A stretch of DNA of 64,000 nt from Sulfurovum sp. (GCA_021166685.1 JAJPEU010000010.1:124001-188000); one strand, 5' to 3'. Positions 18,241-63,258 are shown, counted from the stretch's first letter. The notes: generated by a model from the sequence alone, not told the origin. Numbers and translations are program-made.

Positions 18241-20514
18241 TTATACTCTATCCTTTGCGATCCTGGCGGCCTCTACCATATTTTTAAGCGCAGGTATCAC
18301 TTCTTCCCATTTTCTTGTCTTTAGCCCGCAATCGGGATTGATCCAAAGCTGCTCTTTTGGCAATACTTCAAGCAGAAGTTCTATCTGTTTTACTATCTCC
18401 TCGACGCCTGGAATCCTTGGGCTATGGATGTCATAAACTCCCGGACCTACCTCTTTTGTGTATCCCGCTTTTTTAAAAATTTTTAGCAGTTCATTCCCGC
18501 TTCTGGCGGTCTCTATGGAGATAACGTCCGCATCCATATTTTCTATAGTATCTATAATATCGTTAAACTCGCTATAGCACATATGCGTATGTATCTGTGT
18601 TGTTTCCTTTGCACTGCTAACGGCAATTTTAAAGTCTCTCACTGCCCATTCTTCATACTCTTTTATTTTATCTTTTCTTAGAGGGTACCCCTCTTTAAAT
18701 GCCGCTTCGTCGACTTGGATGATTTTGATACCCGCATTTTGCAAGTTCTCTATCTCATCGCAAATCCCAAGAGCTATCTGTTTTGAAACTTCGCTTTTTG
18801 GTATATCATCTCTGACAAACGACCAGTTGAGTATGGTCACGGGACCTGTGAGCATGCCTTTTACTATCTTTTTAGTTTTGCTTTGCGCATAAATTATCCA
18901 CTCAAGCGTCATAGGTTTTGGACGGCTCACATCGCCGTAGATAAGAGGAGGTTTTACGCATCTGCTTCCGTAGCTCTGCACCCAGCCGTTTTGGGTAAAT
19001 GCAAACCCTTCGAGCTGCTCGCCGAAATACTCCACCATATCGTTTCTCTCGGGTTCTCCATGGACCAGTATATCCAATCCGCACTCTTCTTGGATGGCTA
19101 TACACTCATTTATATATTTCTTGATGACATTGTCATACTCCTCTTTTGAGATAAGAGCGGCGTTAAAATCGCTTCTGGCTTTTCGCAGCTGTGGAGTTTG
19201 CGGAAATGAGCCTATGGTGGTAGTTGCTAGATCGCCGTACCCCAAAAGCTCTCTTTGAATGGAGAGCCTTTTGGTTGAGGCTCCCTCTCTTTGAAACTTT
19301 GCAAGATTATGCACTCTTGTTTGTACTGTTTTATTGTGTATAAGAGATGAGTTTTTTCTGCTTTGGTTTGCTTGTATATTCTTTTGCAGCGCCTCTTTTT
19401 GGGCAACACCCAAATTGTCCTCTCTATCAAAAAAGATTTTTGAGATAAGCGATATCTCACCAAGTTTCTCCAGTGCGAAACTGAGCCACTCTTTTATTTG
19501 CGGATCTAATTTTTGCTCATATTTTAAGGTGTAAGGGGAGTGTAAAAACGAACATGAAGAGCTTATGATGATATTTTCTTTTTGCACACTTTTGGCGATA
19601 TCTTCTAAAATCTCCACGTTCTTTTTTATATCGTTTACCCATATGTTTCTACCGTTTACTACACCGCAGATGAGTTTTTTGCCACTGGAGGCTATTCGTT
19701 CAAGTGAATCGAGATTTATTGACCCATGTACAAAGTCAAGCCCCAACGCCCAGATAGGCGTATGAACTAAAATCTTTGTCGCCTCGTTTGAATGTTCAAA
19801 ATAGGTTACGACCGTAATTTTTATATGTGATGAAACTTTGCAAAGTCTATCGTAAGTCGGTTTTATAAGACTTAGTACTTTTGTATCTAATCCTTTTGCA
19901 AAAATCGGCTCATCTATCTGCACGACTATTTCATCATCAAGAGTGCTTATAACTTTTAAAAGGTCTTCATAGAGAGGAACTATTTTGCCCCAAAACTCAT
20001 AAACATCGCCTCGGTCTACTCTTTTGCTAAGTCCCAGATAAGTGATAGGGCCGATGATATTTATCTTCGTTTTGATGCCAAGAGCCTTTGCCTCGTTGTA
20101 TTCGTCTATAATTTTGGAAGCATTTAGGCGATACTCATCATTCGGACTTAATTCGGGGACTATGTAGTGGTAGTTGGTATTGAACCATTTTGTCATCTCC
20201 ATAGCCACACTTGAAGCATTGCCTCTCGCCATCGCAAAGTAAAGTTCCTCATCCTTTAAATGACGAAATCTTTTAGGGATGGCGCCTAACATGATAGAGG
20301 TATCAAGCATATTGTCGTAGAGTGAAAAATCATTTGAGCTTATGAAATCCATTTTGGCATCTTTTTGATACTCCCAATGTCTCTTTTTTAGTTCTTTTGC
20401 AATTTTTTCAACATCGTCAAATGAGCATTTTTTTGCCCAAAACTCTTCTAAAACTCTCTTTAACTCTCTTTGTTCTCCAATTCTTGGAAAACCAATTACA
20501 TAATTTTTTGACAT
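18241..20514 (-). CDS. metE: cobalamin-independent methionine synthase
   Basis: 757 residues, full length for MetE. It transfers methyl from 5-methyl-tetrahydropteroyltri-glutamate to homocysteine. The N-terminal domain starts YVIGFPRIGEQRELKRVLEE (about 5-24). The C-terminal catalytic domain starts near LATTTIGSFPQTPQLRKAR (about 430). Zinc ligands are visible in IHTHMCYSEF (His and Cys, about 645) and NPDCGLKTRKW (Cys, about 730). Monocistronic and leftward. No B12 riboswitch is apparent in the 60-base leader, so regulation is not evident. Confidence 0.95.
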   Translation of the reverse strand: MSKNYVIGFPRIGEQRELKRVLEEFWAKKCSFDDVEKIAKELKKRHWEYQKDAKMDFISSNDFSLYDNMLDTSIMLGAIPKRFRHLKDEELYFAMARGNASSVAMEMTKWFNTNYHYIVPELSPNDEYRLNASKIIDEYNEAKALGIKTKINIIGPITYLGLSKRVDRGDVYEFWGKIVPLYEDLLKVISTLDDEIVVQIDEPIFAKGLDTKVLSLIKPTYDRLCKVSSHIKITVVTYFEHSNEATKILVHTPIWALGLDFVHGSINLDSLERIASSGKKLICGVVNGRNIWVNDIKKNVEILEDIAKSVQKENIIISSSCSFLHSPYTLKYEQKLDPQIKEWLSFALEKLGEISLISKIFFDREDNLGVAQKEALQKNIQANQSRKNSSLIHNKTVQTRVHNLAKFQREGASTKRLSIQRELLGYGDLATTTIGSFPQTPQLRKARSDFNAALISKEEYDNVIKKYINECIAIQEECGLDILVHGEPERNDMVEYFGEQLEGFAFTQNGWVQSYGSRCVKPPLIYGDVSRPKPMTLEWIIYAQSKTKKIVKGMLTGPVTILNWSFVRDDIPKSEVSKQIALGICDEIENLQNAGIKIIQVDEAAFKEGYPLRKDKIKEYEEWAVRDFKIAVSSAKETTQIHTHMCYSEFNDIIDTIENMDADVISIETARSGNELLKIFKKAGYTKEVGPGVYDIHSPRIPGVEEIVKQIELLLEVLPKEQLWINPDCGLKTRKWEEVIPALKNMVEAARIAKDRV

Positions 20515-21152
20515 TAAAATATCCTTTAATATTTTTTTATTTTGATTTGTAGCGATTAGATAAAAATATAATTAAAGAGGAGGGTGTACGCCTGTACGCC
20601 TAAATGCAAAACAGGTTGTATAGTAGGGGCAACGAGGGATAAAATGATTTAACAGAAGGATAAGTCTTATTTTTAGTTTGAAAAATCTGTTGCAATGGCA
20701 AGGCTTGCCATTTTGCAGCAACAATAGAGGTTCCGGCGATGGCGGTTCATCTTCTTCCTCATTTTTTTTGCACAACAGGGAGTTTGACAAAAAAGCCAGA
20801 CATGCGCTAGCGTCGGCGCTAAGTTTTATATTTGCCGAGTGAGCTTGTATGGCGCTTAGCGTAAAGTAATTTTTGCCAAATCCCTTTATCATGTTTTAGC
20901 CTTTTGCTGCCTTTAAATATAACCATTTTTTAAAATGGTGCCATTTGTTGTAGATGATTGTTTTTATTTATTTGACATATTATAGTATATCCAACCGCAT
21001 TTTAAGTTTATATAAAACCCTTTCGCATGCGTACCAACAATACAAATGCTTTGTAAGCAGTTTTGCACCTAACCTTTTTTGATACGCTTATCAGGTGTAC
21101 AGAAAAAGTTTTGGCTGACGAAAGGTAAAGGTATATAACTCACCTGATAAAA
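20515..21152. other. intergenic region with strong inverted repeats; weak ORF
   Basis: No convincing gene. A 106-codon leftward ORF (20572-20892) lacks a ribosome site and any family match; its C-terminal half reads through a hairpin, so it is probably not real. Structures seen: a long hairpin at 20689-20722 (GTTGC, AATGGCAAG / CTTGCCATT, GCAAC), a perfect palindrome at 20922-20939 (ACCATTTT TT AAAATGGT), and a split inverted repeat TTATCAGGTG (21088-21097) / CACCTGATAA (21141-21150). TTGACA-like and TATAGTAT promoter elements lie around 20970-20990. A non-coding RNA gene is possible here. Confidence 0.4.
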
Positions 21153-21167
21153 TGATATGTATTATCA
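21153..21167. promoter_or_regulatory. Fur box 1 of exbB-exbD-hemP operon
   Basis: TGATATG-T-ATTATCA matches the Fur 7-1-7 core TGATAAT-N-ATTATCA at 12 of 14 arm positions. It lies 85 bases before the exbB start, upstream of or at the promoter. Confidence 0.65.
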
Positions 21168-21217
21168 TAATCATAAAACTTTAAGTTTTTGTAGGATATA
21201 ATTATTTTATTAGTAAT

Positions 21218-21232
21218 TGATAACGAATATCA
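21218..21232. promoter_or_regulatory. Fur box 2 of exbB-exbD-hemP operon
   Basis: TGATAAC-G-AATATCA matches the Fur core at 12 of 14 arm positions and sits 20 bases before the exbB start, after a TATAAT at 21197-21202. The pair of boxes on an iron-uptake operon supports iron repression. Confidence 0.65.
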
Positions 21233-21251
21233 TTACAGTTAAAGGATTTGT

Positions 21252-21686
21252 TTGGAACAGTTAAAATATGCAGTCGATTACGGCACGCTGGGGATACTTT
21301 TTTGCATGAGTGTCTTGGTCTTTGGATTTGCAATGGAGCGGTGGAGATTTTTTAGAAATATTGACTTTGACAGTTATGAGAGTAAAAATCAGATAGAAAG
21401 AGCAACAACAAAAAATCTCACCATCATCTCGCTTATCAGTTCAAACGCCCCTTATGTAGGGCTTCTGGGTACAGTCGGCGGGATAATGGCGGTCTTTTAT
21501 GAGATCGGTATGAGCGGAGGGGCACTTGATACTTCTAAAGTGATCGTCGGCCTTGCGCTGGCCCTAAAAGTCACTGCCGCAGGCCTTTTGGTGGCGATTC
21601 CTGCGACGATGGTCTATGGCGGGTTGATGCGAAAAGTTGATATCGCAATAAGTGAGTGGGAAGATGCGGTCTTTAAAAAAAGTTGA
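21252..21686 (+). CDS. exbB: ExbB/TolQ-type proton channel protein
   Basis: 144 residues with a TTG start, five bases after AAGGA. Three membrane helices are expected: about 12-27, 60-85 (SSNAPYVGLLGTVGGIMAVF) and 100-122 (VGLALALKVTAAGLLVAIPA). The conserved GLLGTVGGI and ALKVTAAGLLVAIPA belong to the MotA/TolQ/ExbB family. With ExbD it uses the proton gradient to energise TonB. First gene of the Fur-preceded operon; its 3' end overlaps exbD. Short N terminus compared with E. coli ExbB, as in other Campylobacterota. Confidence 0.92.
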   Translation: MEQLKYAVDYGTLGILFCMSVLVFGFAMERWRFFRNIDFDSYESKNQIERATTKNLTIISLISSNAPYVGLLGTVGGIMAVFYEIGMSGGALDTSKVIVGLALALKVTAAGLLVAIPATMVYGGLMRKVDIAISEWEDAVFKKS

Positions 21687-22047
21687 GGGCATCAATGTCG
21701 TGCCGCTTATTGATATCATGCTTGTGCTTTTGGCGATCGTGCTTACGATATCATCGTTTATTGCTTTAGAAAAGATCGAACTTACCCTTCCAGGCGGCAA
21801 AAGTTCATCTAAAATAGAGCCAAAAACATATGACATTGCGATCAGCAGTAACAAGGAGTTTTTCTTCAACAGTGCCAAAGTCAAAAAAGAAGATATCGAA
21901 ACAAAACTATTTGAGATCAAAAAAGAGGATGTCGTTTCCATTCGGGCAGACAAACTTACCCCTTATGAAGAGTTTGTCTTTATAGTAGATATGCTCAAGC
22001 AAAAAGGGGTAGAAAAGATAGCGATGGTGGTACAAAGTGAAAAATAA
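21664..22047 (+). CDS. exbD: ExbD/TolR biopolymer transport protein
   Basis: 127 residues from the ATG at 21664 (a GTG at 21652 is also in frame). One N-terminal membrane helix (about 12-30) follows a short cytoplasmic tail; VVPLIDIMLVLLAIVLTISS contains the membrane aspartate (Asp-16) that carries protons in ExbD. The rest is a periplasmic domain ending KGVEKIAMVVQSEK. Overlaps exbB by 23 bp and hemP by 11 bp. Confidence 0.92.
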   Translation: MRSLKKVEGINVVPLIDIMLVLLAIVLTISSFIALEKIELTLPGGKSSSKIEPKTYDIAISSNKEFFFNSAKVKKEDIETKLFEIKKEDVVSIRADKLTPYEEFVFIVDMLKQKGVEKIAMVVQSEK

Positions 22048-22174
22048 CCAAATTAAAGCGATAGATTCGCAAATGCTTTTTGATAAGGGTGAAAAAATCA
22101 TCCACATCATTCATGACGGAGTTGTATATACATTGAGAATTACCAAAGAGAATAAACTTATTTTGACTAAATAA
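22037..22174 (+). CDS. hemP: HemP-type small iron/haem uptake protein
   Basis: A 45-residue protein starting at GTG inside the exbD 3' end. The translation contains IKAIDSQMLFDKGEKIIHII and then HDGVVYTLRITKENKLILTK, matching HemP, whose signature is the C-terminal I-x-H-x-G-x-x-Y-x-L-R-x-T-x-x-x-K-L-I-L-T-K. HemP proteins accompany haem and siderophore uptake loci and in some species act as regulators of the haem receptor. It sits in the expected place between exbD and the receptor. A GGTGG just upstream may serve as ribosome site. Confidence 0.85.
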   Translation: MKNNQIKAIDSQMLFDKGEKIIHIIHDGVVYTLRITKENKLILTK

Positions 22175-22250
22175 CAGCAAAATAGCCAGCAAATTCTAAT
22201 CTCTTATAGATAGTAGCCAGCCAAAAAATCAAAAAACAGGAGGAAGAAAT

Positions 22251-22685
22251 ATGAAAAAGATAGCGGTACTATTTTTAACCGTTTTGGCTTTAAATGCAGC
22301 AAATATAGAGGAGAGGTTTCCGGGAGATTATTTTATGATCCATAAAAATTTGCCTCACTATATGCAGGTTTTCAGGATGCATGGGGATGACTCTGTGTTG
22401 GGGTTGGATGCAACGCAAAAACAAAAACTCTCTGCACTTCAAGAATCGGTCGTGCTAAAGATTACGAAAGCTGCAAGTCAAATCAAAGAACTTGAGCTTA
22501 TCGTTCAAAAAAGAGTTGTGCACGAAAATGCCAAAAGCGCAGACCTCAAAGAGCTGATCGCAAAAATCGCAAAGCTAAGAGCAGACTTGACGATGGAGCA
22601 TATCAACTGTATCAACCAGGTACAGCAGGTTCTTACACCAAAACAGCGTCAATTTTTTATCGATAAATTGGGGATAAAGCAATGA
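22251..22685 (+). CDS. Spy/CpxP-like periplasmic protein in iron operon
   Basis: 144 residues with a signal peptide (residues 1-17, ending ALNAA) and an excellent AGGAGGA ribosome site. The mature chain is helical, with a central LGLDATQKQKLSALQESVV (about 60-78) and a terminal VLTPKQRQFFIDKLG (about 127-141), two copies of the LTxxQ-type motif of Spy/CpxP/CnrX-like proteins. These act as periplasmic chaperones or metal sensors. Its last codons overlap the receptor start (ATGA). A gene of this type inside a TonB/HemP operon is uncommon; a role as a metal or haem sensor is speculation. Confidence 0.75.
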   Translation: MKKIAVLFLTVLALNAANIEERFPGDYFMIHKNLPHYMQVFRMHGDDSVLGLDATQKQKLSALQESVVLKITKAASQIKELELIVQKRVVHENAKSADLKELIAKIAKLRADLTMEHINCINQVQQVLTPKQRQFFIDKLGIKQ

Positions 22686-24841
22686 AAAAGATCATATTGC
22701 TAAGCATAGCGGCAGCTTCTTTTGCAGCAGCAACCGAAGTGGTGGAACTAGAACATATTACAACGATTTCAACCGCTACAAAAACGGAAAAAAAGATCGA
22801 CGGCGTTGCGGCCTCGGTCGAAGTAGTCACCGAAGATGAGATAAAAAAAATGGGCGCCGAGTCGCTTAAGGATATTTTAAATAACACCGCGGGCGTAAAT
22901 GTCCAGTACGGTACATTTCCAAGTGCCAGCAGCAAATCAAAGTCTTCAATATCTCTTAGAGGCATGGGGGCAAAAGGAACGCTGTTTTTGGTTGACGGCA
23001 AAAGGCTTGGAGGGGAGGTGGCAAATCCGTATGATTTGGATCGTATCCCGGCGAGCCAAATCGAAAAAATAGAGATCGTCAAAGGCCCCATGAGCACATT
23101 ATACGGTGCAGACGCTACGGGCGGAGTTGTCAATATCATCACCAAAAAACCAAAAAGCGGCAAACCTCAGATTGATTTCGGTGTGCGATATGGGCAAAAC
23201 GGTAACGGCGATGACCAAAACAAAAACGTAAATTTTTCCGTCAGAGGAAAAGAAAATAAACTCGGATACAGTTTGTATCTCAATAAAACCGCTACCACAC
23301 CTTATACTCAAAAAGAGTTGGCAGACGTCTATGTGAAACAAGTAGGCGGGCCAAATCACGGTACCATACAAAAACCTTCAAATATTACCGACGGTACCCC
23401 TTCAGCGCAACTTAAAAGCTTGAGCGATACCTATCTGCATGATGTAACGTACAAAGAAGAGAGCGATATTTTTACGTACGGCGGGCGGATCGAATATGAT
23501 TTGAGCGATGCAGTGATTGCCGGATTTGAGCTCAATGCTTTCACGGAAGAGAGGGAGGGCAGCTATATCGGCTATTTTCATCCATCCAATGTCTCTCCGG
23601 CTCCCGGGCAGAAAATCCCCGTGTTCAATATTCCAGTTGATTCCGAAGATGACAATGAACGGATGGATATGGCCGCTGATGTCAAGATCAAAGCAAGCGA
23701 TGAGCTAAATCTCTTCTTTAGGGCTTACCAAAGCTATTATGAAAAGCGAAACAAAACAACCACGCCGTATTGGAATGAACTTAAATACACCAGTCAAGAA
23801 GCATCGGCGCAAAACGGCATGGACGCCAATGTCGATATCAAAAGCATAGAAGCCATGGCAAACTATCTGTTTCGCGAAAATCATCTGCTTACTTTCGGAG
23901 CAGAGTACAGAGAAGAAGATCGGGAAGGAACAGTATTTGACCCTGACAGTAATGCAATGACGGGCAAAAACGTTGATTATAAAGCGCTTTATTTGCAAGA
24001 TGAATGGATGGTGGATGAATCGCTTAATGTTATTTTGAGCGCCAGATACGATGATATCAGCAATGCCGATGCGAAGGCTACCTTTAAACTTGGAGCGGTA
24101 AAAAACTTTTCCAAAGCGCTGAATGTCAGAGCCAATATCGCACAAGGGTACCGGGCGCCGGATATCAGAGAGCTTTATATCTTTAAAAATACGCCAAGCG
24201 GTGCACAAAGAGGGGCTGAAGTCATAGATGCTTCTGTCGGTAAAACGGAAGTGTATGATTTGCAGCCCGAATCAACCTTGACTTATGAGATCGGCACGAG
24301 TGGAACACTTGGGGCGACGCGATATGATTTGGCGCTTTTTTATAACGACATAGAAGATTTGATCAGCGAAGTCAATAAGGGTGCATACTATACCTTTGAA
24401 AATATCTCCAGCGCGAAAACCTATGGGGCGGAGTTTACGCTCTCTCGCGATTTCAGCGATACCCTCAGCGGAAGTTTGAGCTGGAGCGAGCTGGGAAGCG
24501 AAAACGATCAGACCGGCAAAGAGATCGAGTTCAATCCTGAACGCATTATCGGCGCGAAACTTACCTATCAAGCCACAAGCGACATTGATACAAGTTTGGG
24601 GGTAAAGCATGTAGGGGAGCAGTACTATAAAAAAACAATCAACCGCGGCACTCCTGCCCAAGCGATCATAGACAGCAAAACGGACGCCTTTACGACAGTT
24701 GATTGGAATATCAATTATGCCTATTCTAAAAACTTCTCAATCTACGGCGGAGTCAACAACCTCGCCGATGAGAAAATCGATGATGTGCTGGGAAGCACCA
24801 GCGGAAGATACTTTTTTACAGGGATGAGAGTAAGTTTTTGA
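22682..24841 (+). CDS. TonB-dependent outer-membrane receptor (iron/haem operon)
   Basis: 719 residues with a signal peptide (1-19). The plug domain is seen at about 35-150: SVEVVTEDEIKKMGAESLKD, SSISLRGMGAKGTLFLVDGK and KGPMSTLYGADATGGVVNII. The C-terminal barrel ends in a phenylalanine (GMRVSF), as outer-membrane proteins do. HemP and Fur boxes point to haem or ferric-siderophore uptake. The haem-receptor FRAP/NPNL landmark is altered here (YRAP ... DLQPE) and no histidine lies between its halves, so haem is not assured; a siderophore or other metal complex is equally possible. Confidence 0.88.
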   Translation: MKKIILLSIAAASFAAATEVVELEHITTISTATKTEKKIDGVAASVEVVTEDEIKKMGAESLKDILNNTAGVNVQYGTFPSASSKSKSSISLRGMGAKGTLFLVDGKRLGGEVANPYDLDRIPASQIEKIEIVKGPMSTLYGADATGGVVNIITKKPKSGKPQIDFGVRYGQNGNGDDQNKNVNFSVRGKENKLGYSLYLNKTATTPYTQKELADVYVKQVGGPNHGTIQKPSNITDGTPSAQLKSLSDTYLHDVTYKEESDIFTYGGRIEYDLSDAVIAGFELNAFTEEREGSYIGYFHPSNVSPAPGQKIPVFNIPVDSEDDNERMDMAADVKIKASDELNLFFRAYQSYYEKRNKTTTPYWNELKYTSQEASAQNGMDANVDIKSIEAMANYLFRENHLLTFGAEYREEDREGTVFDPDSNAMTGKNVDYKALYLQDEWMVDESLNVILSARYDDISNADAKATFKLGAVKNFSKALNVRANIAQGYRAPDIRELYIFKNTPSGAQRGAEVIDASVGKTEVYDLQPESTLTYEIGTSGTLGATRYDLALFYNDIEDLISEVNKGAYYTFENISSAKTYGAEFTLSRDFSDTLSGSLSWSELGSENDQTGKEIEFNPERIIGAKLTYQATSDIDTSLGVKHVGEQYYKKTINRGTPAQAIIDSKTDAFTTVDWNINYAYSKNFSIYGGVNNLADEKIDDVLGSTSGRYFFTGMRVSF

Positions 24842-25617
24842 TGCTAAAGGCCATGAATTACGAAGCAAGAGGGATCGTTCTTTCTCTCTTGGCACATGTT
24901 GTGGTGTTGGGGGCTGTTTTTTTATATCATGAAGAGAAACAGCCGGTACAAAGTGAAAAAAAGATTGCGATTGATTTGATGCAATATCAAATCGTAAAGC
25001 AAGAGCCTCCAAAGCCGGAGCCAGTTATAAAAAAAGAGCCCCCTAAACCACAGCCGATCGAAAAAACTATTGAAAAACTGAAGCCCAACCCTGTCCCAAA
25101 AGAGGCAAAAACGCATAAGCCCGTCATTCATGAAAAACCAAAACCCAAGCTAAAACCCGCAGAGAAGCCAAAACAAGAACCCATCAAAAAACCGAAAGAA
25201 ACAAAACCTGCCAAAAAAGCAAAACTGCAAAAAGAAAAAGCCAAACAAACGGTAAATCCTCAAAAGATGCAGCCAAAAGAGGTTAAAAGAACTGCAAAGA
25301 TACAACAGCCTCTTGATGCCCGAGCGCAGCAGCAAGCATTTCTGAAAACAAATTTTGCAGTTATCAGAGATATGGTTTTGTCAAATCTTGAATATCCGAG
25401 CATTGCAAAAAGGATGAGATGGAACGGAACGGCAGAAGTCAAACTCATCATCGATACTTCAGGAAAACTTCTTCACTGCAGCATCTTCAAATCTTCGGGA
25501 AAAAAACAGCTCGATAAAGCTGCCTTGGAAGCGGCAGAGTCGATAGTCTCCAAAACATTGCCAAAACCAAACGTGAAAACGGTCGTGATATTGCCGATCA
25601 TTTTTGAACTGCGATAG
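24841..25617 (+). CDS. tonB: TonB energy-transducing protein
   Basis: 258 residues from the ATG overlapping the receptor stop (TGATG). An N-terminal membrane helix (about 10-29, GIVLSLLAHVVVLGAVFLYH) has the expected Ser-His residues for ExbB/ExbD contact. A long Pro-Lys/Pro-Glu spacer (about 45-155) spans the periplasm. The C-terminal domain begins VLSNLEYPSIAKRMRWNGTA (about 181-200) and ends TVVILPIIFELR, the TonB_C fold that binds receptor TonB boxes. It should energise both receptors in this window. Confidence 0.93.
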   Translation: MLKAMNYEARGIVLSLLAHVVVLGAVFLYHEEKQPVQSEKKIAIDLMQYQIVKQEPPKPEPVIKKEPPKPQPIEKTIEKLKPNPVPKEAKTHKPVIHEKPKPKLKPAEKPKQEPIKKPKETKPAKKAKLQKEKAKQTVNPQKMQPKEVKRTAKIQQPLDARAQQQAFLKTNFAVIRDMVLSNLEYPSIAKRMRWNGTAEVKLIIDTSGKLLHCSIFKSSGKKQLDKAALEAAESIVSKTLPKPNVKTVVILPIIFELR

Positions 25618-25717
25618 TTTTCCCCTCACACCCATGCCTCCCTCCTGGATGGAATGGAAGTGTATATTTCAGGGTATTGTTGCAATATGTATTCCCACGG
25701 AGGCCGCGGGAATGAGA
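25618..25717. repeat. extended palindromic repeat, copy 3
   Basis: This 100-bp stretch after tonB matches 28634-28722: both have CCCCTC, CCATGC, then TTAGGGTATTGT or TCAGGGTATTGT, then ATTCCC-CGG and GCGGGAA. The palindromic core is TTCCCACGG / CCGCGGGAA (25692-25712; one mismatch). The two copies bracket the ModE-receptor-binding-protein module. The rest of 25618-25856 is the promoter region of the next gene. Confidence 0.55.
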
Positions 25718-25782
25718 GAATTGTTTCACGTTGCAAAACTTCACTATAGCAATTAGATTATATTAAAAAAAATAATGTACAA

Positions 25783-25814
25783 TATCCGTTATATTATTTT
25801 TAACATAACGGATA
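25783..25814. promoter_or_regulatory. ModE-type operator
   Basis: Perfect 10-bp inverted arms TATCCGTTAT and ATAACGGATA, 12 bases apart. Inside, CGTTATATT (25787-25795) and ACATAACG (25803-25810) have the sequence and spacing I know for the E. coli modA operator bound by ModE-molybdate. The site lies 43 bases before the receptor ATG, where binding would block transcription. The modE gene is not in this window. Confidence 0.7.
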
Positions 25815-25856
25815 AAATTTAAAAGAAAAAAAATAGAAATAAAAACAAGGACAAAC

Positions 25857-27818
25857 ATGAACAAACATTTATTTATTCTCCCTCTGGCTGCTTCATGCGT
25901 GCTGGCCGATACGTTTACGCTCGGGCAGATCAACGTTCTTGATGCCGCTCTTGAAGAGAGTCCTTTTGAACAAACGATCAGCTCCAAAGCGATCGAACAA
26001 CATGATTGTGAAACAATCTCTGATGCTCTTGACAATATGAGCGGTATCAATCAAGATCTCCAGGGAGGCCGCGGCGAATCTACTCTGTCTATAAGAGGAT
26101 TTGATGCCAGACGCATCGGGGTTTTTATCGACGGAATACCGGTTTATGTCCCCTATGACGGCAATTTTGATTATGACCGTTTCCTGACAGGCGATATCGC
26201 TCAAATCGATGTAGCCAAGGGTTTTTCTTCTGTTGTGTATGGCGCCAATACGATGGGAGGAGTTGTCAATATCATCTCGAAAAAACCGACCAAAGCATTG
26301 GAAGGAAGCATAAAAACAGGAGTGATTCTTGACAATGACGGTTCAATGTCCCGCCATGTTGAATCGATCAATATAGGAACCAAACAAGACCACATCTATG
26401 CGCAGCTAAGCGGAGTATACAGCAGCAGGGACCACTTTCGCTTAAGTGATGACTATAGCGCCACTGCCTCTCAGCCCGAAGGTGACCGCGTCCGCTCCAA
26501 GGCTGAGGATTACAAAGTGAACTTCAAAGCCGGGTATATCGCTGATGACTGGAGTGAGATCGCTGTGGGATATGCAAAACAAAACGGCGAGAAACAGCAG
26601 CCGCCTGTGACAGACAGTGCCTTTAGTAAACCAAAATATTGGGATTGGCCGTACTGGGACAAAGAAACGGTTTACATCACCGGCCAGAAAAATATCGGCT
26701 TGGGATACCTAAAAGCAGTTGCCTATCATGATACATTCAAAAATTCGCTCTATTCCTATGATGATGCCTCGTACTCCACCATGAATTCAAAATCTTCATT
26801 CAAAAGCAAAAATGACGATCGTGGTGCCGGAGCACGCCTAGAATACGGCATCGAACTTGACAAGCATTTCCTTACCGCTGCGGCAAACTACAAAAAAGAT
26901 TTTCACAAAGGCTACGATATTGATAAAACAACCAGCATAGCGACCCTGACAGAACATTTTGTCGATAACACGATATCGCTCGGAGTAGAGGATGTCTATA
27001 CCATTTCTCCGAATTGGCAGCTGTTGGGCGGGATGAGCTATGACCGCAAAGAATCAGATAAAGCTTACGATAAAATTTCCGAAAGCGTGCCTTTGTCGCT
27101 GGGGGAACAAGGCGCTTTCAATCCTCAAGCAGCATTAATTTACGCGATCGACGATACCGGTAAAATGCGTGCGAGTATCTCCAGGAAAACGTATCTTCCA
27201 AGCATGAAGGACCGCTACAGCAGAAAGCTTGGCACAGCGCTGCCAAATCCTGATCTTGATGCCGAGACGGCAATACACTATGAGCTTAGCTACCAAAAGA
27301 ATACAGGAGCATTCAGCGGGCGCATCAACGCATTTTTTGACAGGATAGATGATGCTATCGAGTCGGTAGTTGTAACAACCGATGAAACACAAAACCAAAA
27401 TGTAGGAAGTTTTGATCATCGCGGTATAGAAGCAGAGCTTAGCTACAAAGCAGACGGGTTGGAGATCGGAGGAAATTACACTTATATCTCTGTCAAAAAC
27501 CGTACAGATGAAGATATAAAAAGAATAGACATCCCCAAACACCAAATTTTTGCCTTTGCACAAAAAGAGTTGGGAAACGGGTTCTCATTGTACGGAAATA
27601 TCAAATGCCGCAAAGGGGCGTATGAGCAAAAACTTGACAAAACATACGTGATCAATCCTACCTTCACGACATTTGACATTAAAGCTATCTATGAGCCGGT
27701 CACCGCTGTCACTGTAGAACTTGGAGTTAAAAATATAACCGATAAACTATATCAATACGATATTGGATTCCCTATGGCCGGAAGAGAAATTTTCTTAAAT
27801 GTAGGATATACTTTCTGA
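25857..27818 (+). CDS. TonB-dependent receptor, predicted molybdate/tungstate uptake
   Basis: 653 residues, signal peptide 1-17 (ending CVLA). The plug has a TonB-box-like start (TLGQINVLD) and the landmarks KAIEQHDCETISDALDNMSG, ESTLSIRGFDARRIGVFIDG and FSSVVYGANTMGGVVNIISK. The barrel ends ...GREIFLNVGYTF with terminal Phe. It should move a scarce solute through the outer membrane using TonB from the neighbouring operon. The substrate is inferred from the ModE-type operator upstream and the TupA-like gene overlapping its stop (TGATG); sequence alone would only say iron-complex-like receptor. Confidence 0.85.
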   Translation: MNKHLFILPLAASCVLADTFTLGQINVLDAALEESPFEQTISSKAIEQHDCETISDALDNMSGINQDLQGGRGESTLSIRGFDARRIGVFIDGIPVYVPYDGNFDYDRFLTGDIAQIDVAKGFSSVVYGANTMGGVVNIISKKPTKALEGSIKTGVILDNDGSMSRHVESINIGTKQDHIYAQLSGVYSSRDHFRLSDDYSATASQPEGDRVRSKAEDYKVNFKAGYIADDWSEIAVGYAKQNGEKQQPPVTDSAFSKPKYWDWPYWDKETVYITGQKNIGLGYLKAVAYHDTFKNSLYSYDDASYSTMNSKSSFKSKNDDRGAGARLEYGIELDKHFLTAAANYKKDFHKGYDIDKTTSIATLTEHFVDNTISLGVEDVYTISPNWQLLGGMSYDRKESDKAYDKISESVPLSLGEQGAFNPQAALIYAIDDTGKMRASISRKTYLPSMKDRYSRKLGTALPNPDLDAETAIHYELSYQKNTGAFSGRINAFFDRIDDAIESVVVTTDETQNQNVGSFDHRGIEAELSYKADGLEIGGNYTYISVKNRTDEDIKRIDIPKHQIFAFAQKELGNGFSLYGNIKCRKGAYEQKLDKTYVINPTFTTFDIKAIYEPVTAVTVELGVKNITDKLYQYDIGFPMAGREIFLNVGYTF

Positions 27819-28621
27819 TGCGTACGATTGTATTTATTTTCATAGTTTGTTTTTCTGCGGTTCAACTAGATGCAAAACAAGAACCGGCTTTACGTGTTGC
27901 CGTCATAGGCGGTATGACGATGAGCGGCATGTGGGATAAAGTTGCCCAGGCATTTGAAGAGGCTTATCATATTCGTGTCGAAGTAGCAGCGACTGGCCCA
28001 AAACATGTGCTGGATACATTTAGCCGCGCTCATGAGGTGGATTTAGTGACCATGCACTCAAGCGATACGATGGTTGACCTAGCGGCCGACGGGATCGTCG
28101 AAGACCTAACCCCATGGGCCCGCAATTCACAAATACTGGTAGGAGACCGCTCCAATCCAGCGCAGATCGACGCAGGCGATGCATTGGATATTGCCATGCA
28201 AAAGCTTGTTCGATCACATTCTCCCATCCTTATACATGCCAGCGGCGGAACGTTTGAAGTCTTTAACGATGTAAGCTCTTCATACAAATTCTCTCCCGGC
28301 CAAATCCATTTGGTGACTACCAAGCACGGTTTTTTAGACGACGTTGCCAAACTAAAAGGATATACTTTTTACGGGGCTATACCGTTTTTGATGCAAAAAC
28401 AGTACAATCCAAATATGCAAGGCTTCACGTTTGACGACAAAAGACTGCGCCGCCCATATCTTGCAGCTATCGGCACAAAAGAACGGATAGGCGAAATCCG
28501 ATACCAAAATGCCCAAAAACTACTTATGTTCCTCACATCAAAAAAAGCACAACAGATCATCCAAAATTTTAGAATCGAAGGGTTTAGCGATACTCCGGTA
28601 TTTTTCCCTGTAAAACCGTAG
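27818..28621 (+). CDS. TupA-like periplasmic oxyanion-binding protein
   Basis: 267 residues with a signal peptide (1-19, ending QLDA). The mature start RVAVIGGMTMSGMWDKVAQA (about 26-45) and AATGPKHVLDTFSRAHEVDL (about 59-78) follow the TupA/ModA-like PBP fold, where the first loop and the T-G-x-x-x-x-L segment contact tungstate or molybdate. VDLVTMHSSDTMVDLAADGI parallels the LLVHAP...F...G part of TupA. No permease or ATPase genes follow, so it would have to share an inner-membrane transporter elsewhere. Translationally coupled to the receptor gene. Confidence 0.65.
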   Translation: MRTIVFIFIVCFSAVQLDAKQEPALRVAVIGGMTMSGMWDKVAQAFEEAYHIRVEVAATGPKHVLDTFSRAHEVDLVTMHSSDTMVDLAADGIVEDLTPWARNSQILVGDRSNPAQIDAGDALDIAMQKLVRSHSPILIHASGGTFEVFNDVSSSYKFSPGQIHLVTTKHGFLDDVAKLKGYTFYGAIPFLMQKQYNPNMQGFTFDDKRLRRPYLAAIGTKERIGEIRYQNAQKLLMFLTSKKAQQIIQNFRIEGFSDTPVFFPVKP

Positions 28622-28633
28622 AAGAGTTTTTTA

Positions 28634-28722
28634 TTTTCCCCTCGTTTCCATGCTTCTGCGCGGGAGCATGTATTTTAGGGTATTGTGGGTGTATGCATTC
28701 CCGCGGAAGTGCGGGAACAAGT
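28634..28722. repeat. extended palindromic repeat, copy 4
   Basis: Homologous to 25618-25717. The core is TTCCCGC (28699-28705) / GCGGGAA (28712-28718), preceded by the shared TTTTAGGGTATTGT. On the minus strand the repeat supplies the last dozen codons and stop of the HEPN gene. Confidence 0.55.
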
Positions 28723-29304
28723 CAGCATCTTATTATTTTTTATAATGCAAAGCAGATAATTCTTTGCACTTTCTAAAGTAAGGCAGATATATTCTTTTTC
28801 TATGCTTATCAAATTTGAACATTCTACAGAAATATACTCAATATCTTTAAATTTATTCTTTTCATTATCTTGTACATATCCTCCATTATGAATAAATTTG
28901 TTTCTAATTAATCTAAGTTTATCTAGATCATCATACATTTTTTTTAAAGGTTTATCATATTGAAGCCCAAAATATATTTCTATATATTTTCTATATTGAT
29001 GGAAATCATTATTACCTTTAATATCGTTAAAATTTAATGTAAGATTGTTTTTATCCTTTATCAATAAACAAATTTTTTGTAACCAAAACTCAAGATAACT
29101 ATATATATTGATAACCATATCAGGCTTCATAAGATGTGAAATGCTAATGCATGTATCAGGTAAAGAGGTAGCGTACATACTATGTGCTTCAGGTATTTTT
29201 TCTCTCTCTTCTTTTTGCGAATTTTCTAAAACTTCAAACATTTTTTCAAAATATTTTTTCAAATTTTTATAGTCTAAGTCAATACGAGCTTCAATCATGC
29301 TCAT
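28675..29304 (-). CDS. HEPN-domain protein coupled to RM enzyme
   Basis: 209 residues, soluble and helical. The key feature is RLIRNKFIHNGGYV (about 139-152): Arg-Asn-x-x-x-His fits the R-x4-H motif of HEPN RNases and nucleotide-binding toxins. An earlier helix, VINIYSYLEFWLQKICLLIK (about 63-82), resembles the Mae/RiboL-PSP HEPN subgroup. The start codon overlaps the stop of the restriction-modification gene (ATGA), so the two are co-translated. Members often act in phage defence as RNases. The last residues (CSRTSAGMHTPTIP) come from the adjacent palindromic repeat, so the native C terminus was probably lost. Codons are AT-richer than in most neighbours. Confidence 0.6.
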   Translation of the reverse strand: MSMIEARIDLDYKNLKKYFEKMFEVLENSQKEEREKIPEAHSMYATSLPDTCISISHLMKPDMVINIYSYLEFWLQKICLLIKDKNNLTLNFNDIKGNNDFHQYRKYIEIYFGLQYDKPLKKMYDDLDKLRLIRNKFIHNGGYVQDNEKNKFKDIEYISVECSNLISIEKEYICLTLESAKNYLLCIIKNNKMLTCSRTSAGMHTPTIP

Positions 29305-32300
29305 TTTATTCCTTCCACAATCTTAATCTCATCTTCGCTCAGGTCGTAGAGTTTATAGACCATCTCATCTATCTCTTTGTCGGTTTTGGCTATCTCATCT
29401 TTAAGCTTGCATGTAAGGGCTTTGTCGTTCTCAAAAATGGCTTGCCACTCTTGTTTGAAGTTGCGTTCTTGGAGTTTGTCGGCAAATTTTAGTTTCTTTG
29501 CTTTTGCGTATTCGCTCACAAACTCCTCAAACTCCAGCTCCTCAAAATTTTGCAGTTTCTTTGTCGGTTTTTCTAACCCCAGCTCATTTGTAAAGTTTTG
29601 TTTTGTCTCTTGGAGTTGTTTGTTTAGAGAGAGCATTTTGTCGGCTTTTTGGGTAAATGGTTGCTGCATATTTAAACTTAATATTTTTATAGGAAGTTGG
29701 GATAAATGTACAGGTTTAACTTCATATTCATTAAAAACATTATTAAAATAAAAATCCATTAATTCAGAATTTAAAAGCACATAAATATATTTTATATCAA
29801 AATCTTCATTAGTTAATACCACATTAGACAATCTATTTAAATTATAGTATTTGTCTAAATCAAGATAGCAAATAAGTTTCCTTTTTAATCCTCTTCTTGT
29901 TCTTTGAATTAGTATTTTATCATTTGAAAAAATATATTCTTGCGGTAAACTTCTACCTCTATCACCAAAACTTTTTACAAAATCTTTGTCATATAAAATC
30001 CATTCACCTGACCAAGACACTGTATATCTTCCGATATTTTTGCCATTCAACATTTTATGATATCTTGTGTCTTTTTGAAAATCAGATGTCAAATCATCTT
30101 TTATATAACCCGTATTAATTCCTACTGTGACATAACATATATTGGATAATTTTGTAAAATCAATATTCATCTTATTTATAATTTTTTTTACTTCATTACT
30201 AAGATAAATGTTATATTCATTATCTTGATTATCTGAATTAATTAAATTGATTTTATATTCTTTTTCAGGCGTATCAATGTCTATATTTCGTGTTCTTTGA
30301 ATCTTAATATTAGTATCACTTCCAATATTTTGTTTACCTAAAATATAAATAATACTTTCAACAATAACATTCTCAAAAACACCTAAACCTAAATCATAGA
30401 TTTCTTTGATATTAGTATTATCAATAATTATTTTTCTTAAATTAGAGTAGGATTCAGCACTTAAAAATGTATTCGGAACAATCATACCTATTAGCCCAAT
30501 CTTATTAACAAGATTAATAGTTTTTTCCATAAAAAATTTATATAAATCATAATTTCCTTGAGTAGATATATAATGTTGCTGAAAATAAAATTTATCCACT
30601 AATACATTTCTATATGTATACGGCGGATTCCCAATTACAACATCAAAGCCGCCTTGTGCAAAAACTTCTGGAAACTCCTCTTCCCACACAAACGCATTTT
30701 CAGCAACCGAACGATCAGCGATCAGAGAGTTGCCGCATTTGATTTTATTTGCCAAACTAGTAAGCTCCCTGCCTCTGTGCGCCGTGCGAAGCCACAAAGA
30801 GAGTTTTGCTATCTCAACTGCGTCTTCGTTGATGTCCACGCCGTAGAGGTTGTGCTCGAGGATATTTGTCTCGATATCGTAAAGGCTCAAGGCCTCGTTT
30901 TCATACGCACGGCGATAATCATCCACGTGTTTATGCTCACGGATCAGAAATTCCAGCGCCTGGTTGAGAAACGCACCGCTTCCGCAGGCGGGATCGAGGA
31001 TTTTGAGGTTTAGAAGCCAGTCGCGGTATTCGTAGAGTTTGGCGAGTGTTTCCTTTTCGGCTTTGGTAAGCTTTTTGGGGTTTTGCGGCTCTTCGATACC
31101 GGTAAGCCCCAGTGAAGCTTTTTTCTCTTCGCACAGTTTGCCCAGCGTATTTTCGACGATGTAGCGGGTGATGTACTCGGGAGTGTAAAATACGCCGTCT
31201 TTTTTACGTTTGCTCTTTTTTTTGTCAAATTCGGTCTCGTTGATGGAGGCGTTCATCTCTTCGAGGTCGGTGAGGGACTGTTCGAAGATGTGCCCTAAGA
31301 TATTGACCGATATGTCGCTGACGAAATCAAAATCCGAGAGCTTTTGGGCTTTGAGGTCAAGGTACGCATCTTCGATGACGAGCGAGTCCAGCAGGTCGTC
31401 TTTGGCAAAAAGCCCGCCGTTGTAGCGGGGGATATTCAGCTTTTCGTTGCCTTCGTTGATAGCGTTAAAGTAAAACTTGTAGATATCGTATAGCGTATAG
31501 GAGGTGAATTTCTGGTTTTGAAACTCTTCTCTTATCTCTTTGATCGTGTTGGGCGTGAGCAGTCCTCTGTCCTCTGCAAAAAGGATGAAGATGATACGGT
31601 CGCAGAGTTTTTGGGTGAGGCGGAGCAGGGTTTGTTTGTCCGGCAATCTGTCATCCTCGTGCTTGACACGGGGATCCACACTCTGGATTCCTGCCTTCGC
31701 AGGAATGACGGTGTTTATAGCAGGATGGCGCAAGGTATCTGTTAACCGCTCATTGCTCGTTGCTATCTGCTCACTGCTCCCATAGTTGTTTTTGATGATA
31801 TTCTCAAAGAGATGGGTGCGGAACTGGCTGAAATCACGGTACAGCTCTTTGGAGATCTGCTGTTCGAAATTGGCAGATTTTTCTTTGAGTTTGAGCGGCA
31901 AGCCTTCTTTGATGCTCTCAAAAGAAAGAAGAAGATGCAGCTTTTTAAACTCCTCATAGTTCAGGCTAAAAAGGCTAAATTTCTCATACGCTGTTTTTTT
32001 GTCTATATAAAAGCGCAGCTCGTCGAAGTTCGAGATGATGATATAGCGGCTGTTTGCATGGGAATTGTGATAGTTGAAAGCCTGCGCTTCGATGGCGTCG
32101 AGATTTTTCGTTTTTTGGTCTTTAAGCTCCACGACACCTATCACTTCGCCTTGTGCATAGATGACACCGTCGGCTTTTTTGGCGTCGGTTTCGTTTTTCT
32201 TTTCCCGTTCAAGGTTAAAGTCGGCAGGATCGGTGCTGTCAAGCGTGTAGCCTAGGGCATTTTCAAATACATCCTTGAAAAACCCGTCTTGGTATTTTTC

Positions 32301-32423
32301 TTCTTTGACCTCTTTGATGAAATCTGTTTTTGCCAGGTATGCCTGAAAAGCAGCCCATCTTTGGGCGACGATACTCTCATCTTGGGATACATTTTTTAAA
32401 ACGGATGGTTGAAAAATAGACAC
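29301..32423 (-). CDS. type IIG-like restriction-modification enzyme (Eco57I/TaqI-type N6-adenine methylase)
   Basis: About 1040 residues. GTG at 32423 follows AAAAAGG and gives SIFQPSVLKN; an ATG at 32453 is the longer option. The N-terminal third has a nuclease-like region (NLEREKKNETDAKKADGVI, then IGVVELKDQK, a D-ExK arrangement). Methylase motif I is LDPACGSGAFLNQALEF; motif IV is VIGNPPYTY (N6-adenine). A target-recognition half follows (about 690-1050), AT-rich like the HEPN gene and so more recently acquired. It would methylate and cut one DNA site as a single protein. Residues about 248-268 derive from an inserted palindromic repeat; function despite the insert is likely but unproven. 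Confidence 0.85.
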   Translation of the reverse strand: MSIFQPSVLKNVSQDESIVAQRWAAFQAYLAKTDFIKEVKEEKYQDGFFKDVFENALGYTLDSTDPADFNLEREKKNETDAKKADGVIYAQGEVIGVVELKDQKTKNLDAIEAQAFNYHNSHANSRYIIISNFDELRFYIDKKTAYEKFSLFSLNYEEFKKLHLLLSFESIKEGLPLKLKEKSANFEQQISKELYRDFSQFRTHLFENIIKNNYGSSEQIATSNERLTDTLRHPAINTVIPAKAGIQSVDPRVKHEDDRLPDKQTLLRLTQKLCDRIIFILFAEDRGLLTPNTIKEIREEFQNQKFTSYTLYDIYKFYFNAINEGNEKLNIPRYNGGLFAKDDLLDSLVIEDAYLDLKAQKLSDFDFVSDISVNILGHIFEQSLTDLEEMNASINETEFDKKKSKRKKDGVFYTPEYITRYIVENTLGKLCEEKKASLGLTGIEEPQNPKKLTKAEKETLAKLYEYRDWLLNLKILDPACGSGAFLNQALEFLIREHKHVDDYRRAYENEALSLYDIETNILEHNLYGVDINEDAVEIAKLSLWLRTAHRGRELTSLANKIKCGNSLIADRSVAENAFVWEEEFPEVFAQGGFDVVIGNPPYTYRNVLVDKFYFQQHYISTQGNYDLYKFFMEKTINLVNKIGLIGMIVPNTFLSAESYSNLRKIIIDNTNIKEIYDLGLGVFENVIVESIIYILGKQNIGSDTNIKIQRTRNIDIDTPEKEYKINLINSDNQDNEYNIYLSNEVKKIINKMNIDFTKLSNICYVTVGINTGYIKDDLTSDFQKDTRYHKMLNGKNIGRYTVSWSGEWILYDKDFVKSFGDRGRSLPQEYIFSNDKILIQRTRRGLKRKLICYLDLDKYYNLNRLSNVVLTNEDFDIKYIYVLLNSELMDFYFNNVFNEYEVKPVHLSQLPIKILSLNMQQPFTQKADKMLSLNKQLQETKQNFTNELGLEKPTKKLQNFEELEFEEFVSEYAKAKKLKFADKLQERNFKQEWQAIFENDKALTCKLKDEIAKTDKEIDEMVYKLYDLSEDEIKIVEGIK
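31650..31710 (-). repeat. in-frame palindromic repeat (VIPAKAGIQ type) inside RM gene
   Basis: On the coding strand the translation is TVIPAKAGIQSVDPRVKHED, a peptide known from genome-wide palindromic repeats that invade genes. Its core ATTCCTGC-CTTC-GCAGGAAT (31687-31706) is a perfect 8-bp hairpin. The insertion keeps the frame. The preceding stretch 31740-31785, with repeated GAGCAATGAGC-like units, may be part of the same insertion. Confidence 0.75.
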
Positions 32424-32427
32424 GTTG

Positions 32428-32451
32428 GATACCTTTTTATGAATAGGTATC
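32428..32451 (-). promoter_or_regulatory. hairpin/operator over RM gene ribosome site
   Basis: Arms GATACCT and AGGTATC (perfect 7 bp, 10-base loop) lie at the RM gene start. In the leftward transcript the second arm contains the AAAGG ribosome site used by the GTG at 32423. The hairpin could therefore hide the site, or the DNA palindrome could be a repressor operator. Either would limit expression of the enzyme. Confidence 0.45.
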
Positions 32452-32494
32452 ATTGTAGCAAAAAGAACCCAAAAATCAATTTGGGGTTAAAGGG

Positions 32495-56978: not shown

Positions 56979-57316
56979 TATTTATCTTTCCTTTTTACAG
57001 GTGTTCCGTTTATATGATCATTTCCAAATTTACTATAAGCTTTTAAAGAAAGTGCGATGACAAATGCAGTCATAGCAAATCCGATAACAATGGCTGTCAA
57101 AACAAGCGCCTGGGGAAGAGGATCGGTGTATTCTGCGTTATTGTTCAAAATGGCAGCTTTGTCAATATGCAATCTACCCATCGCAAATAAAAAAATATTG
57201 ACACCGTAGGCAAGCAAGGTAAGTCCCAAAACCACCGGATAGGTCCTTGCCCGAAGTATTAAAAATATACCCGCAGCCGTTAAAACAGCAATAATTAAAG
57301 CAAGTAGTATTTCCAT
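56978..57316 (-). CDS. mrpC: Mrp antiporter subunit C (NuoK-like)
   Basis: 112 residues, three helices. YPVVLGLTLLAYGVNIFLFA (about 27-46) and DPLPQALVLTAIVIGFAMTA (about 65-84) are the MrpC/NuoK hallmarks, the latter with its membrane-embedded acidic region. Overlaps mrpA by one base. Confidence 0.94.
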   Translation of the reverse strand: MEILLALIIAVLTAAGIFLILRARTYPVVLGLTLLAYGVNIFLFAMGRLHIDKAAILNNNAEYTDPLPQALVLTAIVIGFAMTAFVIALSLKAYSKFGNDHINGTPVKRKDK

Positions 57317-60138: not shown

Positions 60139-60187
60139 ACTATACTCCTCTTTTTAGGTATTTAAAATGACTGCATGTGTCCTTGGG

Positions 60188-60316
60188 TCAAAAAACAATT
60201 TTTCCGTCCTGCTGCATGCGGTGCATGATCTCTTTGGCTTTTTCATATACTCTTTTGCAAGAAGAGCATCGTAGGCTTTGTGGATCATTGTGCGCCCAGT
60301 CCCTGAAGCTCCGCAT
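60188..60316 (-). CDS. possible small Cys-x-x-Cys protein overlapping valS end
   Basis: A 42-codon frame starting at ATG 60316, inside the last 32 bases of valS, and ending 67 bases before the mrpA ATT. It reads MRSFRDWAHNDPQSLRCSSC, then KRVYEKAKEIMHRMQQDGKI-VF. The CSSC pair and following basic helix suggest a small zinc-ribbon-like or metal-binding peptide. Ribosome site is weak (AAAGTGA). Family not recognised; chance is a real alternative. Confidence 0.35.
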   Translation of the reverse strand: MRSFRDWAHNDPQSLRCSSCKRVYEKAKEIMHRMQQDGKIVF

Positions 60317-62924: not shown

Positions 62925-63063
62925 AGGTATATTCCATTTATAGGGTATAGTATTGCCGAGATTATAACGTATTGGTGCTTTTATGGAGTTGGGGGAGGCA
63001 GGGCCGCTTTTTCTATTGACAATCCTATCGTAATGAAATACAATGACAAAAAAGGAGTATGTC

Positions 63064-63258
63064 ATGAAGCAGAAAATAGAAGAAACCATTGAGCATATTG
63101 AGCATTCAGATCAAATTTCGCAAGAGATTAAGCCTGCGGTTATTGAAAAGCTCAAAGAGTGGAAAGAAGAAGAAAATGCGATCAATGATGTTGCCGTCAG
63201 GCTTGAACAGTGGTGGGCCGAAATAGAGCCTATCTTTGCAGAATTGGGATGGGTGTAG
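63064..63258 (+). CDS. small helical hypothetical protein
   Basis: 64 residues from the ATG at 63064, seven bases after AAAAGGAG. Acidic, helical, no membrane segment: KQKIEETIEHIEHSDQISQE then KEWKEEENAINDVAVRLEQW. It resembles DUF4404-type short regulators only loosely. It is followed 3 bp later by another small gene, so the two are probably expressed together. Confidence 0.65.
   Translation: MKQKIEETIEHIEHSDQISQEIKPAVIEKLKEWKEEENAINDVAVRLEQWWAEIEPIFAELGWV

Follow-up and report, generated by a model that had tools for sequence, protein, structure and literature searches.

We propose that two overlapping genes in the 64,000-nucleotide stretch of DNA analysed here (the window) form a ModE-controlled module for uptake of a molybdenum or tungsten (Mo/W) species across the outer membrane, and that this module is one branch of a wider ModE regulon; we put the probability of this reading at roughly 0.7. 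The first gene (25857–27818, plus strand) encodes a TonB-dependent receptor of 653 amino acids, TBDR2, with Pfam Plug (PF07715, 1.3e-23) and TonB_dep_Rec_b-barrel (PF00593, 2.8e-35) domains, both above Pfam cut-offs. The second (27818–28621, plus strand) encodes a periplasmic solute-binding protein (SBP) of 267 amino acids, with a TupA/ModA fold and an altered anion pocket. The receptor TGA overlaps the SBP ATG (TGATG), an arrangement already read correctly in an earlier note on this DNA. That note regarded the two genes as a two-gene importer through the outer membrane; the Mo/W uptake context has held up, but their sufficiency has not, because the window operon contains neither an ABC permease nor an ABC ATPase, and the two genes alone would thus not make an importer to the cytoplasm. 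Comparison of genes and promoters supports the view that ModE controls the operon and that it belongs to a Mo/W uptake regulon, in a system larger than the note described, with a second ModE-associated receptor accompanied by MolA/MolBC-like ABC genes.

The candidate operator is a perfect 10-bp inverted repeat at 25783–25814, with arms TATCCGTTAT (25783–25792) and ATAACGGATA (25805–25814), and within it lies a 24-bp core, CGTTATATTATTTTTAACATAACG, at 25787–25810. The E. coli ModE consensus is CGNTATATA-N6-TATATANCG, set within a slightly longer repeat (PMC545781); the window sequence agrees with it at 13 of 16 fixed positions (three mismatches), with identical spacing. The core ends 46 nt before the receptor ATG (25857) and the full repeat 42 nt before it, such that the perfect repeat of the earlier note stands and its distance of 43 bp is corrected. 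When the 239-bp intergenic region was shuffled with dinucleotides preserved, 13 of 5000 shuffles produced a site with three or fewer mismatches and 49 of 5000 a perfect 10-bp inverted repeat. Across the 1.8-Mb genome, sites of this quality number 14, against 24 for the reversed-pattern control, so that a lone three-mismatch site is weak evidence. An early scan of four genomes with a loose ModE-site pattern also yielded many sites, at a frequency no higher than that of its control; what is informative there is the clustering of near-palindromic sites. As judged from the sequence comparisons, then, the weight of the evidence for the operator comes from specificity and conservation, the lone site being modest.

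Specificity is seen first in the genome of origin (G000), which is of Sulfurovum type, its named relatives being Sulfurovum, and belongs to a sulfur-oxidising bacterium. It encodes one clear, full-length ModE, the predicted cognate regulator, in which a LysR-type HTH is accompanied by two TOBE/Mop domains (TIGR00637 match, 109.6 bits over cut-off). Five ModE-type sites fit the consensus better than any others in the genome, with one or two mismatches each, and every one of them sits at a modE/mol/mod cluster that begins with modE on contig C2. They precede three sets of genes there. One comprises a BtuF/MolA-like SBP, the 743-aa receptor TBDR1, a permease of FecCD type and an ATPase; another groups an OprD-type porin with ModB and three ModA-like proteins; and the last is a further porin, which follows mop, modB and modC. 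In the first of these, which we treat as a sister operon, the best PDB match of the FecCD permease is HI1471, the MolB of H. influenzae (192 bits, 1.6e-55), compared with 160 bits for the hemin permease HmuU, and for the SBPs HI_1472/MolA is the third-best PDB match, after 4pag and 4ovk, the best of which, 4pag, is recorded as a periplasmic binding protein with no ligand named. Seven receptors in the genome carry a recognisable plug domain, and in the 350 bp before each of their genes only TBDR2 has a ModE-type site closer to the consensus than six mismatches; for the other six, the window neighbour included, the best sites have at least six. TBDR1 is an eighth receptor, left outside the seven by its weak plug match, and lies under the ModE-type site of its own operon. 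Three different ModA-like proteins stand in a row before a single ModB-like gene at L009:16467–18686 of this genome.

Conservation was followed across Campylobacterales. A scan of contig proteins recovered only two relatives, and whole-genome profile searches found more: the TBDR2–SBP pair occurs in 8 of 299 sampled genomes from five genera (by SBP profile), plus G001 and G060 (the latter the Zeitz clone genome), with G061 and G232 apparently being one UBA7648 genome. The orthologues of TBDR2 at seven other loci share 42–72% identity with it. Scanning of these orthologous loci, as the earlier note had proposed, places the pair at about eight independent Campylobacterota loci, seven having an operon-promoter site with three or fewer mismatches (G000, G001, G060, G232, G300, G127 and G314) and one, in the genus of G304, G326 and G228, having only a four-mismatch site. 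In G001 a site with one mismatch lies 23 nt before TBDR2, G300 has two one-mismatch sites immediately before the TBDR2 start, and in G127 a one-mismatch site is followed, in one operon, by a small gene for a molybdopterin-oxidoreductase-domain protein (PF00174, L070:10370–10891), TBDR2 and the SBP. In G060, a two-mismatch site precedes a globin-like gene, TBDR2, the SBP and a methyltransferase, with the genes running onward to modD, and in G232 and G314 a three-mismatch site heads a long operon containing the pair. With the ModE-type operator before the receptor thus matching at 13 of 16 positions, correctly spaced, and recurring at orthologous loci, the central observation of the earlier note is borne out. 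Two results that the note named as counting against its reading, a genome devoid of modE and orthologous loci devoid of ModE sites, were looked for and did not turn up.

TBDR1 is the more widespread receptor: eight genera are represented among the 23 of 299 genomes that have it, and most of its loci carry ModE-type sites, often beside modE. A tonB gene lies inside the Mo cluster in L031, L033, L069 and L075; in L081 and L082, exbB-exbD-tonB and Mol-type ABC genes diverge from modE, with a site between. A ModE-domain match was found in all 8 pair genomes and all 23 TBDR1 genomes, to be read against a base rate of 226 of 299 at the loose threshold used. Conserved methyltransferases, an LLM flavin monooxygenase and truncated-globin-like proteins lie between the receptor genes in L031, L032 and L069, and these companion proteins hint that the ligand is organic or undergoes processing. 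At L035:5169–6906 in G001, an NMT1-like SBP and ABC genes sit between modD and a porin associated with a ModE site, possibly representing a further uptake system.

Over all loci, ModE-type sites with three or fewer mismatches were found in 31 of 50 Mo-type promoter gaps and in 0 of 95 others. This set includes loci that had been fetched for their sites, and a second test was therefore confined to loci selected for protein similarity and nothing else, where 20 of 36 Mo-type promoters have a site, against 0 of 57 others (Fisher 7e-11); the reversed consensus gave 4 of 36 and 0 of 57 in the same loci. Shared ancestry means that the counts are not fully independent and that the p-values overstate the evidence, but the contrast between Mo-type and other promoters in these sequences is plain despite this.

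The layout of the operon offers some insight into its history. A terminator-like hairpin follows both genes (28649–28670, plus strand), identified by consensus match only, in a search that found five such hairpins where 3.1 were expected. The operon is bracketed by two copies of a degenerate direct repeat (25618–25710 and 28634–28715), 76% identical over 46 nt, the core motif of which occurs only at these two places in the 1.8-Mb genome. The pair is also more similar to its counterparts in G060/G061 (SBP 70–77%, TBDR2 72% identity) than is TBDR1 (64–65%), and no match to the pair was found in G034, the closest relative by Mo cluster. Taken together, the flanking repeats, the higher similarity of the pair and its absence from G034 suggest, without proving, that the receptor–SBP module was acquired together with its operator.

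The SBP itself matches Pfam SBP_bac_11 (2.4e-10), and its AlphaFold model (pLDDT 89.4) has as its top Foldseek matches the TupA-type structures 3muq, 5my5 (TupA), 3kn3 and 3lr1, which places it in the ModA/TupA family by its type II SBP fold. In TupA, the oxyanion site is made up of TTTS, His59, Arg118, Thr124 and Asp170 (PMC5517513). In four SBP orthologues aligned with TupA, TTTS, Arg118 and Asp170 are absent: the stretch aligned with TTTS is IGGMTMSG-like, Arg118 falls opposite His140 and Asp170 is unmatched, whereas His59 and Thr124 are retained as His80 and Thr145. Across ten orthologues, Lys62, His80, Ser142 and Gly144 are invariant, and His140 and Thr145 nearly so. By this alignment the pocket is conserved yet different from that of TupA, and the loss of TTTS, Arg118 and Asp170 means that the ligand may be something other than plain tungstate or molybdate. 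The match to the TupA model is sub-threshold (28 bits against a curated cut-off of 400), no TupA-model match was found anywhere in the genome at E 0.001, and no TupB/TupC genes lie beside the SBP in the window operon or in the relatives' loci that were read. The three defining residues and the neighbours therefore rule out identification as TupA, making that name unsuitable; of the earlier description of a TupA/ModA-like periplasmic protein, the fold survives and the defining residues of TupA do not.

These properties also bear on what the SBP does. It could instead be a sensor, a chaperone or a partner that strips ligand from the receptor, leaving onward carriage of the metal to ModA- or MolA-like proteins; this alternative touches the second gene alone and agrees with our main reading of the receptor. 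The replaced TupA ligand residues would fit, as would the SBP being linked to a receptor, and followed by no cognate TupB/TupC-type permease, in the loci read. However, the strong SBP fold, with TupA structures at the head of its matches, and the invariant and near-invariant residues listed above suggest a maintained pocket, and we regard such a role as unlikely, if still worth keeping in mind.

Upstream of the pair lies a second TonB-associated unit (21252–25617), comprising exbB and exbD (21252–22047, plus strand; TIGR02805/ExbD), a TonB-dependent receptor of 719 amino acids (22682–24841, plus strand), whose best upstream ModE-type match has seven mismatches (L087), and tonB (24838–25617, plus strand; TonB_C, 8.7e-16). 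Fur-box-like sequences precede it at 21140–21240, with GATAACGAATATCATTACA at 21219 matching at 14 of 19 positions, a score reached by 38 of 2000 shuffles; these suggest an ordinary iron-uptake unit under Fur control, probably outside the Mo/W module. The earlier note had this adjacent exbB-exbD-tonB set powering the importer, and that specific link fails: besides the Fur-like boxes, no such set was found beside the pair in the relatives' loci read, and the genome encodes five proteins with a TonB C-terminal domain, the window tonB included. As a dedicated Mo/W energiser the set was rejected on these three grounds. The window TonB may well energise TBDR2, and perhaps several receptors, though nothing found here ties it to molybdenum.

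An operon under ModE control need not carry Mo/W. The cargo might be, for example, an iron siderophore, cobalamin or an organic ligand required while molybdoenzymes are at low levels, or else a shared ligand taken up in step with Mo status. In the PDB, TBDR2 is best matched by BtuB and catecholate receptors (BtuB/CirA), chiefly over the plug region, and though such matches do not identify the cargo, this plug similarity leans towards vitamin and siderophore ligands; the methyltransferase, LLM flavin monooxygenase and truncated-globin-like companions in relatives suggest an organic ligand, and the pocket of the SBP differs from that of TupA. In Azotobacter, TonB receptors are reported to be induced without Mo and V, via VnfA1 and not ModE (PMC9542535). 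Against this, the ABC permease of the sister operon is nearest MolB, and modABC, mop and modD are common to the same sites and clusters. Neither a cobalamin riboswitch nor any other Rfam match was found within 20500–29500, and no Fur-like box was found at the receptor–SBP operon, where the best match is 12 of 19. The reading of TBDR2 as a B12 receptor was rejected on the missing riboswitch, and a cargo other than Mo/W is, in our judgement, distinctly improbable. Least credible of all is chance resemblance, in which an ordinary iron or vitamin receptor happens to lie beside an AT-rich palindrome unused by ModE: the absence of genome-wide enrichment of three-mismatch sites over the reversed control and the iron-regulated look of the neighbouring genes would allow it, but sites before seven independent orthologous operons, some with a single mismatch, and the promoter contrast in both the full and the site-blind sets leave it very little room.

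Returning to Mo/W uptake as the preferred reading, we suggest the following sequence of events. In a replete cell, metal-loaded ModE would occupy 25787–25810 and stop transcription, acting presumably as a repressor, and scarcity of Mo/W would release this block. The receptor, powered by a TonB-ExbB-ExbD complex, would then carry its ligand across the outer membrane to the periplasm, where the TupA-fold SBP would receive it and pass it to an ABC transporter encoded elsewhere, perhaps ModBC or the MolBC-like permease and ATPase of the modE cluster. TonB-dependent receptors normally carry bulky ligands and the pocket differs from that of TupA; for both reasons we conjecture that the cargo is likelier to be complexed or thio-substituted (a thiomolybdate in sulfidic water, for example, or a metallophore complex) than free molybdate. 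More broadly, and at slightly less than even odds, Campylobacterota may possess a complete ModE-controlled, TonB-energised route for Mo/W import, probably in complexed or thio form, made up of dedicated outer-membrane receptors (as many as three in one cluster), Mol-type ABC transporters, a re-tooled TupA-fold carrier and, in some genomes, a TonB or ExbBD-TonB reserved for the task. On this view the receptor–carrier pair would also pass from genome to genome as a portable module bearing its own operator.

Several known systems resemble parts of this proposal. The full-length ModE and CGNTATATA-N6-TATATANCG-type sites before modABC-like genes recall the E. coli-type ModE regulon; here, however, TonB receptors and porins, and in relatives TonB, also lie under ModE-type sites, whereas the ModE targets known to us, and those described in the literature found, are inner-membrane transporters and molybdoenzyme genes. 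In H. influenzae, the molybdate/tungstate ABC importer MolABC (HI1470–1472) has counterparts in the sister operon, the FecCD permease resembling HI1471 and the SBPs HI1472, but the Campylobacterota operon adds a TonB receptor under ModE-type sites, and the window pair lacks a permease. TupABC shares with the window SBP its fold and the equivalents of His59 and Thr124, and differs in having TTTS, Arg118, Asp170 and TupBC neighbours and in not being tied, as this SBP is, to an outer-membrane receptor. The TonB-dependent uptake of metal complexes (siderophores, B12, nickel) offers the same plug–barrel, the SBP and FecCD-type ABC genes of the sister operon, and the tonB or exbB-exbD-tonB of relatives' clusters; what sets the present case apart is the predicted regulator, ModE in place of Fur, NikR or a B12 riboswitch, together with a predicted Mo/W cargo. 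Finally, T6SS-secreted ModA and the outer-membrane protein IcmP have been proposed to give active passage of molybdate across the outer membrane in P. aeruginosa (PMC8602904), again pairing an SBP with an outer-membrane partner; there, however, the ModA is secreted and the partner is of metalloproteinase type, in contrast to a TonB receptor under ModE control.

The usual assumption is that porins let molybdate and tungstate through the outer membrane passively. If a ModE-controlled TonB receptor is indeed at work, some bacteria would pay an energy cost for the crossing, the most plausible settings being those in which sulfide converts molybdate to thiomolybdate or organic matter binds Mo/W. 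We found no report of such a receptor in the literature reached, which covers ModE-controlled inner-membrane molybdate transport (PMC545781), MolBC-A, TupA (PMC5517513) and T6SS-ModA/IcmP (PMC8602904); the survey of ModE sites by Studholme and Pau (2003) could mention one. The analysis flags a receptor family that automatic annotation would label as iron or B12 receptors, and provides defined genes, operators and relatives with which the question of Mo/W passage across the outer membrane can be settled directly.

Two further regions of the window were looked at. The stretch at 57316–63089, considered as tandem 934-aa duplicates, instead encodes unrelated proteins, an NADH/Mrp antiporter-type subunit and a valyl-tRNA synthetase. 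At 29301–32453 lies an Eco57I/MmeI-type restriction-modification protein, the frame of which includes the peptide VIPAKAGIQSVDPRVKHEDD; we take this to be the kind of peptide typically seen where a dispersed palindromic repeat has inserted in frame.
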